A stretch of 32,844 nucleotides of DNA from Tannerella sp. (GCA_031255595.1 JAIRSF010000060.1:1-32844); one strand, 5' to 3'; numbered from the stretch's first letter, positions 23,421-32,844 are shown. Notes: generated by a model from the sequence alone, not told the origin. Numbers and translations are program-made.

Positions 23421-23512
23421 CCGGAAAATGAAAAAAAATGTCCGTTTTTCTTTATTATTCCATATTTTATTCACATATTTGCACCTCACCTCATTAGCAT
23501 AATTAATTATTT

Positions 23513-28106: not shown

Positions 28107-28976
28107 ATGAAACATATTGCGGCATCGGAACTGATTATCAATGAGGACGGTAGCGTGTTCCATCTTCATATAAAACCGGAACACCTTGCCGATCGCATCA
28201 TCCTTTGCGGAGATCCGGCGCGCGTATCCCTGATTGCCGGGTATTTCGACACCAAAGAATGTGACATATCCAACCGCGAGTTTTACACCATTACCGGAAC
28301 CTATGAAGGCAAACGGATCTCTGTCGTATCCCATGGTATCGGATGCGATAACATAGATATCGTGATCAACGAACTCGACGCACTCGCCAATATTGACTTT
28401 GCAACACGCACCGTCCGTCCCGTATTTCGTCAACTCACCCTGGTACGTATCGGCACATCGGGCGGTTTGCAGCCATACACACCGGTCGGTTCCTATGTAG
28501 CCGCCGAAAAATCAATCGGGTTCGACGGGGTGATTTACTTTTACAAAGACCACGAAAAAGTCCGGGATATACGTATGGAAGACGAACTGATCCGTCAGTT
28601 GGACTGGGATATTACCGGTATCCGCCCGTATGTCGTTTCGGCGGATACTTCGCTGATTGAACAGATTACCAAAGACGATATTATCCGCGGCATGACCATT
28701 GCTGCCAACGGCTTCTACGGCCCGCAGGGACGGGAATTACGTCTTCCGCTTAACGACCCGGAGCTAAACCGCAAAATAGAAGCCTTCCATTTCGAAGACC
28801 GCCACATCACCAATTTTGAAATGGAGAGTTCCGCACTCGCCGGCCTGGCCACCCTGATGGGACATCGCGCCATGACCGTCTGCTGCATCATCGCCGGACG
28901 GGTAGACAAAACGATGAATACGGATTACAAAAACAGCCTTCCGATACTGATAAAAAAAGTGCTGAACAGAATTTAA
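28107..28976 (+). CDS. Nucleoside phosphorylase (uridine phosphorylase-like)
   Basis: ADRIILCGDPARVSLIAGYFD, VSHGIGCDNIDIVINEL, LVRIGTSGGLQP, NFEMESSALAGLATLMGHRAMTVCCIIA; start M36 of the listed ORF (ATG 28107) preferred. Confidence 0.88.
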   Translation: MKHIAASELIINEDGSVFHLHIKPEHLADRIILCGDPARVSLIAGYFDTKECDISNREFYTITGTYEGKRISVVSHGIGCDNIDIVINELDALANIDFATRTVRPVFRQLTLVRIGTSGGLQPYTPVGSYVAAEKSIGFDGVIYFYKDHEKVRDIRMEDELIRQLDWDITGIRPYVVSADTSLIEQITKDDIIRGMTIAANGFYGPQGRELRLPLNDPELNRKIEAFHFEDRHITNFEMESSALAGLATLMGHRAMTVCCIIAGRVDKTMNTDYKNSLPILIKKVLNRI

Positions 28977-29069
28977 ACAGAATTGTCGTCATCTACTGCC
29001 GGATACAGCTAAAGTAAAGACTTATGAAAATAAGTTACCGGAAGTTTTACCGGCGGACACACGAATCTC

Positions 29070-29168
29070 CCCCCGATTTGAAACAAAATCAAAACATTTT
29101 CACCCCCGATTTGAAACAAATTATCCAAGCATAAACCCCCGATTTGAAACAAAAAACACTATCTTTGC
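29070..29168 (+). repeat. Tandem iteron-like array 1: three 33-bp units with identical 18-bp core CCCCCGATTTGAAACAAA
   Basis: Core at 29070-29087, 29103-29120 and 29136-29153; exact 33-bp period; unit 3 spacer ends in TATCTTTGC; directly upstream of the ATPase gene at 29184. Confidence 0.95.
29160..29167 (+). promoter_or_regulatory. -7 box TATCTTTG at the end of array-1 unit 3
   Basis: TAnnTTTG match 17 nt before ATG 29184; the repeat core occupies the place of the -33 element. Confidence 0.65.
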
Positions 29169-29183
29169 AAAAAACAAGTGCGT

Positions 29184-30536
29184 ATGTTTAAAAGAAATAT
29201 TCTTACGGAATTGAGACAATGGGCTGCGACGAAAAATCGCAAACCGCTAATACTGAGAGGATCTCGCCAAGTAGGCAAAACTACGCTTGTAGATAGTTTT
29301 GCGCCGTATTTTGATAGTTATCTTTATTTGAATCTTGAAAAAAGCCCAAGCGCAATCGCCCTGTTTGAAAAAGAACAGGAGATGAGTCATCTTTTGGCAG
29401 AAATTTTTCTTTTTTGCAACAAGGAAAATAAGCCGGGAAAAACGCTTTTATTTATTGATGAAATTCAATATTCAAAAACGGCAATCACAAAACTTCGTTA
29501 CTTTTACGAAGCAAAGCTATCTGATTTATACATCATTGCCGCTGGTTCATTATTGGAAACTGTGTTGAATAAAAACATTTCGTTCCCTGTCGGACGAGTA
29601 GAATATTTAGCTGTTCATCCCTGCGTATTCAACGAATTCTTACGGGCTATCGACGAAACACAACTTGAAAAAGCATTATTTGATTGCCGGATACCCGAAG
29701 CTTTGCATACCAAAACAATGAATCTTTTCAATACGTTCACACTCATTGGCGGTATGCCCGAAGTGGTTGCCGATTATGCTGAAAACAAAAACTATGTCGG
29801 TTTGAACCGTATTTATGAAAGTTTACTTACAAGTTATCGTAATGATGTTGAAAAATATGCCCGAAACGAAACAATGAATCAAACGATTCGTTATATTTTG
29901 CAGTACGGTTGGAAGTTTACGGCAGAACGCATAACATTGGGCGGGTTTGCCGGTTCTTCTTATAAGTCGCGTGAAATGGGAGAAGCATTTCGCACATTGG
30001 AAAAGACGTTCACTCTGGAACTTTGCTATCCGACAACCGATTGCGTTGTGCCGATAACGAAAGATCTGAAACGTTCTCCAAAATTATTCTGGCTTGATTG
30101 CGGTTTGGTTAATTATGCTGCAAATGTGCAAAAGGAAGTGTTCGGAGCATCCGATATTCTGGATGCATGGAGAGGAAAAATTGCCGAACAAATTGTTGCT
30201 CAGGAATTACTCGCAATAGATAGCCGCGTCTCAAATCAGCGGAATTTTTGGGTGCGAAATAAAAAAGATTCGGATGCAGAAGTCGATTTTGTTTTACAAT
30301 ACGATGGCAAAGTGATTCCGGTAGAGGTAAAATCGGGACATAACACAAAACTTCGCTCTTTGCATTTATTTATGGACGAAGCGCCTCATAATATAGCTGT
30401 AAGAGTCTGGTCGCAGCCTTTTTCAATAAATGAAGTGACAACACTCGGAGGTAAGAAATTCAAACTAATCAACTTGCCATTTTATTATGTTGGAAGACTT
30501 GAAACTATATTGAAAAATGCATTGCCGGCTCGTTAA
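29184..30536 (+). CDS. P-loop ATPase, AAA_14 + DUF4143 type with PD-(D/E)xK-like C-terminal motif (ATPase 1)
   Basis: Walker A RGSRQVGKTTLV, Walker B TLLFIDEIQ, AAGSLLE sensor, GGMPEVVADY, C-terminal DAEVDFVLQYDGKVIPVEVKSG; ATG 29184 preferred over GTG 29178. Confidence 0.9.
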   Translation: MFKRNILTELRQWAATKNRKPLILRGSRQVGKTTLVDSFAPYFDSYLYLNLEKSPSAIALFEKEQEMSHLLAEIFLFCNKENKPGKTLLFIDEIQYSKTAITKLRYFYEAKLSDLYIIAAGSLLETVLNKNISFPVGRVEYLAVHPCVFNEFLRAIDETQLEKALFDCRIPEALHTKTMNLFNTFTLIGGMPEVVADYAENKNYVGLNRIYESLLTSYRNDVEKYARNETMNQTIRYILQYGWKFTAERITLGGFAGSSYKSREMGEAFRTLEKTFTLELCYPTTDCVVPITKDLKRSPKLFWLDCGLVNYAANVQKEVFGASDILDAWRGKIAEQIVAQELLAIDSRVSNQRNFWVRNKKDSDAEVDFVLQYDGKVIPVEVKSGHNTKLRSLHLFMDEAPHNIAVRVWSQPFSINEVTTLGGKKFKLINLPFYYVGRLETILKNALPAR

Positions 30537-30794
30537 CTCCTTCTTTGCCTTTTTCATCATTTTGTATTCATTGAGAATGCTACAGAACATGATTTGTTGT
30601 TTATATAAAGGAATAACGCTTGATTTTGCGAATAGAAGTGTTGAAGAAATTGATCTGAATGACCCGGACTTTACCATTGTATATGATGGAACCTCGACCT
30701 TTATCACTAACTTATAAGTGCAACCGGGCACCACAACTATCGACGCAGGTAGTTTCCCGAAAGGCATTACTTTTAAAAAAAAATCGCCAATCAA

Positions 30795-30890
30795 CACAAA
30801 AAGTCGTTCCACTTTTTGTATATTTGCACAAAAAGTCGTTCCACTTTTTGTGTATTGACACAGAAAGTCGTTCGAATAAATGTATACTCT
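30795..30890 (+). repeat. Tandem iteron-like array 2: three 32-bp units abutting the ATPase 2 start codon
   Basis: Units: CACAAAAAGTCGTTCCACTTTTTGT-ATATTTG (30795), CACAAAAAGTCGTTCCACTTTTTGT-GTATTGA (30827), CACAGAAAGTCGTTCGAATAAATGT-ATACTCT (30859); core has 9-bp inverted arms ACAAAAAGT/ACTTTTTGT. Confidence 0.95.
30819..30826 (+). promoter_or_regulatory. -7 box TATATTTG at the end of array-2 unit 1
   Basis: TAnnTTTG followed by C; if used, units 2 and 3 fall mostly in the 5' UTR. Confidence 0.55.
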
Positions 30891-32195
30891 ATGGAAAGAT
30901 TTGCTTATAAAGACTTGCTCGAATGGAAGAATAAGGCGAAAAGAAAACCTTTGATTGTCCGAGGCGCACGTCAGGTTGGAAAAACGTGGCTGATAAAAGA
31001 ATTTGGAAAAAAAGAATATAAACAATTGGCTTATATAAACTTTGAAACCTCGGTGAAATTAAGTACGCTTTTTATGCAGGACTTTGATCTGAACCGCATA
31101 TTAACAGCAATAAAACTCGAAACCGGGATTCAGGTTGTCGCAGACAATACCTTAATTGTATTTGATGAAATTCAGGAAGTGGAACGCGGACTTACCGCCT
31201 TGAAGTATTTCTATGAAAATGCGCCTGAGTATCACGTGATCGCAGCCGGCTCCTTATTGGGAGTGGCACTTCATCACGCTACCTCTTTCCCGGTGGGGAA
31301 AGTAAGTTTTCTGGATATTTATCCGCTTGATTTTTCCGAATTTCTGCTTGCAAAAGGACAAAAATCATTACTCGATTTATTGGAAAGCCTTGACTGGACA
31401 CTGATAAAAACGTTCAAACACAGATATATCGAACTCCTGAAACAATACTATTATGTAGGCGGTATGCCGGAAGTCGTATTGTCGTTCGTTGAAAATAACG
31501 ACTATGATGAAGTCCGCGTACTTCAACATGAAATTTTAACGTCCTACGAACAGGATTTTTCCAAACATGCACCTTTCGACATGGTTCCGAGAATACGAAT
31601 GTTGTGGAATTCCATACCGGCTCAATTAGCAAAAGAAAACAAAAAATTCCTGTACGGCCTCATTAAAAAAGGCGCCAGAGCGCGGGAGTACGAATTAGCC
31701 TTATCCTGGCTAATTGACAGCGGACTCATCTACAAAACGGATCGCATCTCTAAACCCGGTATCCCTTTAAAAAGTTATGCCGACAGCAGCGCATTCAAAT
31801 TATATCTCGTTGACGTAGGATTGCTCGGCGCCTTAGGCGAAATAGATGCAGGAACATTGCTTGACGGAAATAAAATTTTTGAAGAATTTAAAGGCGCATT
31901 GACCGAACAATATGTCCTCCAACAACTTATAAAAAAACATACACAATCTGTTTTTTACTGGTCTGCCGAAGGAGGAAAAGCCGAAGTAGATTTTATTCTT
32001 CAATATACCGGCAAAGTGATACCCATCGAAGTAAAAGCGGAAGAAAACCTCCAATCCAAAAGTCTAAAGTCATATATCCGGAAATACGCCCCCGAAACAG
32101 CGATCCGCACCTCCATGTCCGACTTCCGAAAAGAAGAACAATTGACGAATATCCCCTTATATGCCGTCTTGTTAGTTAACGTTGTTAGTGAATAG
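30891..32195 (+). CDS. P-loop ATPase, AAA_14 + DUF4143 type with PD-(D/E)xK-like C-terminal motif (ATPase 2, paralogue of ATPase 1)
   Basis: Walker A RGARQVGKTWLI, Walker B TLIVFDEIQ, AAGSLLG, GGMPEVVLSF, C-terminal KAEVDFILQYTGKVIPIEVKAE; ATG 30891 preferred because the listed 30816 start translates the repeats. Confidence 0.9.
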   Translation: MERFAYKDLLEWKNKAKRKPLIVRGARQVGKTWLIKEFGKKEYKQLAYINFETSVKLSTLFMQDFDLNRILTAIKLETGIQVVADNTLIVFDEIQEVERGLTALKYFYENAPEYHVIAAGSLLGVALHHATSFPVGKVSFLDIYPLDFSEFLLAKGQKSLLDLLESLDWTLIKTFKHRYIELLKQYYYVGGMPEVVLSFVENNDYDEVRVLQHEILTSYEQDFSKHAPFDMVPRIRMLWNSIPAQLAKENKKFLYGLIKKGARAREYELALSWLIDSGLIYKTDRISKPGIPLKSYADSSAFKLYLVDVGLLGALGEIDAGTLLDGNKIFEEFKGALTEQYVLQQLIKKHTQSVFYWSAEGGKAEVDFILQYTGKVIPIEVKAEENLQSKSLKSYIRKYAPETAIRTSMSDFRKEEQLTNIPLYAVLLVNVVSE

Positions 32196-32356: not shown

Positions 32357-32844
32357 ATGAGATACTTTAACATAGCAGGGCCTTGCAACAGCATAAAGCA
32401 TTACATGATAGAGGCCACCACGCGCCTGCAAGGTGTGGAACAGTTGATTGATGAGGAACAGTATTTTGTGATTCACGCCGCACGCCAGAGCGGAAAAACA
32501 ACTTACCTGAAAGATCTGGCGGACAGGCTGAACGCCGGCGGAACATATTATGCCCTGTACTATTCGATGGAAAAAGCTCAAAACGTTATTGACCCGAAAG
32601 AAGGCATACCGGCGATCGTGCGGAATATGAAAAACAAACTCAAAGGTACAAATATTCCATACGGTGCGGAATTTGCTAAAAATGCGGATTATGAAGATTT
32701 TATAGGCGTTCTGGGAACTGCGCTTTCACAATTTTGTGAACTGTTGGACAAACCGTTGGTAATCCTTTTCGACGAAGCCGACTGCCTGAGCGAAGGAACA
32801 TTAATCTCTTTTCTCCGGCAACTGCGCGACGGTTACAACAGCCG
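32357..32844 (+). CDS. P-loop ATPase/AAA-like ATP-binding protein, different family from ATPases 1-2 (3' truncated by window)
   Basis: MRYFNIAGPCNSIKHYMIEATTRLQGVEQLIDEEQYFVIHAARQSGKTTYLKDLADRL...; Walker A ARQSGKTT, Walker B LVILFDEAD; open to window end. Confidence 0.85.
   Translation, partial: MRYFNIAGPCNSIKHYMIEATTRLQGVEQLIDEEQYFVIHAARQSGKTTYLKDLADRLNAGGTYYALYYSMEKAQNVIDPKEGIPAIVRNMKNKLKGTNIPYGAEFAKNADYEDFIGVLGTALSQFCELLDKPLVILFDEADCLSEGTLISFLRQLRDGYNS

Follow-up and report, generated by a model that had tools for sequence, protein, structure and literature searches.

Private repeat arrays over the promoters of many PDC-S01-type ATPase genes change with the protein and are probable autoregulatory operators

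Introduction

Helically phased direct repeats that lie over a promoter and serve autoregulation are familiar from plasmid Rep iterons, partition ParA promoters and toxin-antitoxin operators. Type III toxin-antitoxin systems (ToxIN) carry tandem repeats of ~35 bp just upstream of the gene, and Tn7-like elements bring together site arrays and proteins of the AAA and nuclease-fold kinds. The locus presented here lies in a contig of Tannerella sp. (JAIRSF010000060.1:1-32844; "the window" below is this whole 32,844-nt stretch) and holds two ATPase genes with a tandem array just upstream of each. Like iterons and autoregulatory operators, the arrays are helically spaced (22-23 and 31-33 bp in the family) and lie over a promoter, and the gene product is presumed to be bound. 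Three marks of such operators are met: spacing in helical multiples, promoter overlap in a fixed phase, and co-diversification of unit and product. The difference is that the arrays here belong to a numerous paralogous family of nuclease-fold ATPases, each with a private sequence, and that no replication origin or antitoxin partner was found. The position just upstream of the gene is shared with ToxIN. However, because the -7 box falls within the array or downstream of it, transcription does not cover the whole array, unlike in ToxIN, and the proteins are ATPases; an array acting at the RNA level was rejected. No Rfam family reached its gathering score in 28900-31000.

Both proteins match the models of PDC-S01 end to end. 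PADLOC-DB enters PDC-S01 as a single-gene phage defence candidate made of AAA_14 (PF13173) and DUF4143 (PF13635). The available portion of PMC12988326 describes it as a candidate defence family, identified through guilt-by-embedding, in which an ATPase is joined to a PD-(D/E)xK-superfamily domain, and, in a 2026 survey, as the fourth most common (candidate) defence across prokaryotes, most such candidates still awaiting validation. The available portion of PMC13356809 puts it first by frequency among single loci in rumen genomes. As far as these portions go, the two papers cover prevalence, and that of PMC12988326 makes no mention of repeats, operators or promoters. In the openly licensed literature DUF4143, COG1373 and PDC-S01 are rarely named, and a description elsewhere is not excluded.

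Results

Both genes and their arrays, described in an earlier note on this DNA as two paralogous ATPase genes each with its own upstream array, were confirmed in position by TRF and by exact units:

29070..29154, + strand: array 1, three units (C)CCCCGATTTGAAACAAA at 29071, 29104 and 29137, period 33 (TRF and sequence)
29160..29168, + strand: Bacteroidota -7 element TATCTTTGC, shortly after unit 3 of array 1 (sequence)
29184..30536, + strand: ATPase 1, AAA_14 + DUF4143, 450 aa; PDC-S01 (PDLC04788, 2e-180 over 1-445)
30796..30883, + strand: array 2, units at 30796, 30828 and 30860, period 32 (TRF, unit search and matrix)
30819..30827, + strand: -7 element TATATTTGC, which takes up the spacer separating the first two units of array 2 (sequence)
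30891..32195, + strand: ATPase 2, AAA_14 + DUF4143, 434 aa; PDC-S01 (PDLC04786, 1.8e-188 over 1-429)
32052..32054, + strand: codon of Q388 of ATPase 2, which covaries with unit base 8

Over the whole 32.8-kb window TRF reported three arrays: these two, at 29070-29154 (period 33) and 30794-30873 (period 32), with a 26-bp array at 23455 as the third. Array 2 has ACAAAAAGTCGTTCCACTTTTTGT at 30796 and 30828 and a diverged third unit, ACAGAAAGTCGTTCGAATAAATGT, at 30860; a matrix trained on other genomes alone, without the window, gives the units 22.4, 22.4 and 26.6 bits. The three units and the spacings of 33 and 32 bp given in the earlier note therefore stand, with two minor corrections: the third ATPase-2 unit is degenerate, and the units resemble palindromes more than simple direct repeats. 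The same note called the arrays completely different, which is correct for this pair and can be refined, since they are unrelated because ATPase 1 and ATPase 2 belong to different subfamilies, each with its own conserved putative operator. Between the two genes a short open frame (30577-30717, ~46 codons) resembles a gene remnant. Directly 3' of ATPase 2 a third ATPase gene (AAA_22-like, 32357-32844) runs off the contig, and TRF reported no array upstream of it.

In the window's 2.73-Mb genome (77% complete) there is no further copy of CCCCGATTTGAAACAAA at up to 1 mismatch, nor of ACAAAAAGTCGTTCCACTTTTTGT at up to 3. At 2 mismatches, CCCCGATTTGAAACAAA has two sites elsewhere in the genome, and the reversed control gives one. 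The lack of close copies in this 77%-complete genome argues against a dispersed target or copy-control site, and a dispersed-target reading was ruled out on this ground.

DUF4143 matches number 10 in the window's genome, and at least one is present in 40/41 congeneric genomes, with a maximum of 30. For the DUF4143 genes of the genus, direct repeats were scored in the 200 bp upstream. As a rule the start codon closest to 78 nt before the P-loop was taken, which makes positions counted from it approximate at some loci, and many genomes in the comparison are metagenome bins. A score of at least 12 was reached by 55/106 family genes as against 8/530 dinucleotide shuffles. The lags concentrate at 22-23 and 31-33, with 66 as the double step. 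Helical lags (21-24, 31-34 or 66 bp) were found in 48/104 family genes and in 5/173 other genes of the same genomes, all of which have an upstream intergenic stretch of 80 bp or more (Fisher p 4.6e-19); no lag of 31-34 occurred among these 173. The pattern recurs across the genus and beyond: 25/69 genes in a Bacteroidota sample outside it score at least 12, and 20 of the 25 do so at lags 22, 23, 32 or 33. The expected enrichment of 31-34-bp arrays upstream of homologues is thus met. An array at each homologue, on the other hand, is a general pattern and not a universal one, as repeat scoring detects none at about half of the homologues in the genus, among them entire clades. These may carry single or degenerate sites, or none.

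Several observations were made alongside. Two paralogues in the window's genome (G000:C120; L003 and L005) are divergent and share one intergenic region, in which repeat scoring found no clear array. The complete genome G003 has direct repeats of 41-42 bp upstream of or near unrelated genes (L129, L130, L131, L132 and L134), a separate genome-specific class that accounts for much of the background signal. Upstream of a minus-strand gene (L144:1240-2643) period-21 repeats (TACGTTTCTGCAATACGTAG-like) score 70; the start of this gene resembles, in our reading, a nucleotide-binding oxidoreductase and does not look like AAA_14.

Relatives of ATPase 2 were taken from 80 genome-collection loci at 56-68% identity, in Bacteroidota, Firmicutes and a few others, some of the loci outside these two phyla coming from metagenome bins. 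Where upstream DNA sufficed, 45/79 score at least 12, with every lag 32, 33, 64 or 65. A matrix trained on these relatives, ACAAAAAGTCGTTcGAAAAAaTGT, is present in 73/78 loci, with at least two units in 63, and elsewhere in ATPase-2 loci gives 73 matches per 845,000 positions. Neighbouring units (102 cases) are spaced mostly 32 bp (78) or 33 bp (18). The units hold 0.81 bits per base and the adjoining 8-bp spacers only 0.13-0.15, which implies that selection acts on the units. They are also one-sided: past the start codons, only 6 matches reach 12 bits in 78 ATPase-2 genes. Among 18 relatives of ATPase 1 from genus and phylum, 51 units were found in 17, with consensus TTACCCTtAcTTTGTtACAA and period 32-33; the window form CCCCCGATTTGAAACAAA is a variant of this consensus.

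Unit sequence was expected to track protein subclade, and it does. The period is clade-specific on the protein tree: it is 33 throughout the ATPase 1 clade, 22 wherever an array is visible in a clade with core TTGAGTAA, and 23 in the clade of L046, L049, L050 and L070. Array similarity follows protein identity when arrays are compared on the same strand (rho 0.22, Mantel p 0.0005) but not on the reverse strand (rho 0.03), with a curve that is flat at low protein identity and steep above 60%. Array-bearing paralogue pairs within a genome that are less than 60% identical have alike arrays in just 1/80 cases. Pairs between genomes below 60% are equally unlike, so this reflects distinctness and not selection for distinctness. 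The suggestion that gene and cognate array co-diversify is supported by this tracking, by the subfamily operators and by the covariation of residue 388 described below.

The arrays are also held in phase with promoters. In the relatives L098, L111, L094 and L118 a TATCTTTGC follows the last unit at a near-constant distance (by eye). When 42 Bacteroidota ATPase-2 loci with units were searched for the -7 element as TAnnTTTG[CT], 18/23 elements started at unit offset -9 or +23, which is a single phase and also that of the window element at 30819. In most Firmicutes loci the last unit has TTTGACTTTTGTG or similar as its second half, which forms a TTGACT -35 box, with a TATAAT-like box ~17 nt beyond (spacing by eye). 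Two promoter types phase-locked to one array are as predicted for an autoregulatory operator.

Turning to the proteins, Pfam AAA_14/DUF4143 scores are 86.5/71.3 bits for ATPase 1 and 101.7/133.7 bits for ATPase 2 (gathering cut-offs 27/28.1). The full-length match to PDC-S01 models (PADLOC-DB) seen for both extends to 10/10 further tested homologues, which match too. ATPase 1 has the P-loop GSRQVGKT, the Walker B motif FIDEIQ and the nuclease-fold motif EVDF...VEVK. In ATPase 2 Walker A/B (K31, D92, E93) and D..ExK (D367, E380, K382) are intact, with equivalents in ATPase 1. All 104 genus homologues tested have the Walker A lysine and the Walker B D/E, and of the 47 array-bearing genes all retain D367, 44 retain E380 and 43 retain K382. 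The D/E/K residues would be superfluous in a plain repressor, so their retention in array-bearing genes makes an additional enzymatic role probable; conservation of E380 and K382 suggests an active nuclease, for which there are no activity data.

The AlphaFold2 model of ATPase 2 is confident (pLDDT 90.1). It divides into an AAA core (~1-190), helices, a winged-helix-like domain (~227-308) and a PD-(D/E)xK-like fold (~328-408), names and boundaries being our reading of the predicted secondary structure. No PDB relative was found by sequence. The best PDB fold match is the Pyrococcus abyssi Walker ATPase 2qen (E 1.2e-8, TMt 0.52), followed by ORC and Cdc6/Orc1 on origin DNA. Despite this likeness to 2qen and ORC1/Cdc6 initiators, whole-chain superposition is poor (query-normalised TM-score 0.43 for 2qen, ~0.3 for other matches) and a common function is not established.

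Protein columns were compared with unit positions over 73 loci, and residue 388 against base 8 gave z 15.5, the next residue 8.4. Residue 388 is nearly the only strongly variable position of the loop ENL-x-(A/S)KSL, just after E380/K382. Of 48 cases of Q388, 42 have G at base 8; all 19 cases of K or R have T or A, and H is mixed. On the tree 6/6 supported independent pairs agree and none is opposite (p 0.031), a marginal value that represents one post hoc choice among many tests. Later sequences fit the rule: L329, L330 and L338 (K, T), L331 (R, T) and L339 (Q, G). These are only five agreements, the units of L329 and L330 were read from the shorter copies L179 and L177, and the loops of L329 and L330 are identical. 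Links of T53, Y108, K259, G362 and other residues to bases mostly vanish on the tree; R265 against bases 22-24 is suggestive (5 pairs, none opposite). In the ATPase-1 family (17 loci with units) no clear residue-388 code was seen. We read the covariation as a possible contact of the nuclease-fold domain with base 8, in the absence of binding data, and it predicts that a single mutation would switch specificity.

Viral carriage looks rare. An IMG/VR pattern scan confirmed no relative, 13 unverified fecal "phage" clones carry relatives, and so do 58/72,556 plasmids. In one such clone (L341, MT836768.1) a 60%-identical relative has a period-33 array that is apparently reversed, while G at base 8 and Q at residue 388 are unchanged (by eye). 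Matches at ~50% identity lie on many gut Bacteroides and Parabacteroides plasmids. WP_005868811.1 is a homologue encoded on a B. thetaiotaomicron plasmid. On the B. thetaiotaomicron plasmid NZ_CP143942.1 a 50%-identical relative (L337:3001-4281) stands beside two HipA-type toxin genes and has upstream repeats like AAGTGCGGATAAATGTAT, 66 bp apart.

Discussion

We consider it probable that each gene is a self-contained module whose product regulates itself by binding the array in its own promoter. Both binding and repression are inferred, and the sign of regulation is deduced from promoter overlap. Of the functions proposed in the earlier note, autoregulation is favoured by the promoter phase lock and the one-sided units, whereas the want of close copies speaks against a dispersed target or copy-control role. 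The module would comprise an AAA ATPase, a winged helix and a PD-(D/E)xK-fold domain, together with an operator array across its own promoter. The protein would bind its own units, probably as an oligomer whose subunits line up along a single face of the helix at steps of two or three turns, a geometry that is likewise inferred. Bound protein would shut off RNA polymerase, probably cooperatively along that face, so that expression would stay low and be set by how much of the protein is present. The nuclease-fold domain may help to read the site (residue 388 with base 8), probably together with the winged helix.

It is conceivable that the array is mainly a functional target, on which the ATPase-nuclease is parked as a sensor or self-marking platform until an invader frees it, with promoter overlap coupling expression. 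Displacement by invading DNA or a phage product would fit the listing of PDC-S01 as an anti-phage candidate in the available portion of PMC12988326, and the invariant Walker motifs, the D/E/K motif kept in most array-bearing genes and the nuclease-fold residue that covaries with the unit are all compatible with it. We nevertheless think it unlikely, as the phase lock to two promoter types is an operator prediction and superfluous for a platform, and nothing in this analysis indicates that the AAA_14/DUF4143 family acts on phage.

Much less can be said for arrays as ends or target sites of a Tn7-like mobile element encoded by the gene. Copy number is variable (1 to 30 matches in 40/41 congeneric genomes) and the window pair occupies a variable position behind a conserved nucleosidase gene. 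The DNA after this gene differs among the 11 relatives examined, and no clean empty site for the ATPase pair was found. Against such an element, which we regard as very improbable, the window units have no close second copy in the genome, the module has no transposase-type protein, and units are one-sided, with almost none downstream of genes, where Tn7-like transposon ends would have arrays on both sides. A host regulator rather than the gene product could in principle bind the arrays. We found no support for this and give it scarcely any credence, given that ATPase-2 units are conserved across phyla along with the protein, that unit sequence follows product identity and that the covarying residue belongs to the product. 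Chance, slippage or generic Bacteroidota promoter repeats can be discounted, for although TAnnTTTG stands at many promoters, intergenic DNA is AT-rich and some background genes have repeats, the shuffles and background genes rule out generic AT-rich or promoter repeats, conservation is confined to the units, and Firmicutes ATPase-2 loci carry the same unit.

Going further than autoregulation, the PD-(D/E)xK domain might be a programmable sequence reader, which we offer as a doubtful but possible extension. The protein would keep an ATP-dependent hold on its private array, and loss of binding, for instance by titration on invading DNA, would both derepress the gene and activate the nuclease. 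Residue 388 would be one position of the code, with Q recognising G at base 8 and K or R recognising T or A there. Titration of the protein by infection or foreign DNA, or a switch to cutting brought about by either, is speculative.

With autoregulation by private operators, protein and operator change together, and we propose that many paralogues can thereby coexist in a genome without cross-talk. PDC-S01 is reported to be very common and mostly unvalidated, going by the available portion of PMC12988326, and private operators would provide a handle on what its proteins bind. For many paralogues the putative DNA ligand can be read from the genome, so that binding, ATP dependence and nuclease activity become testable at once.
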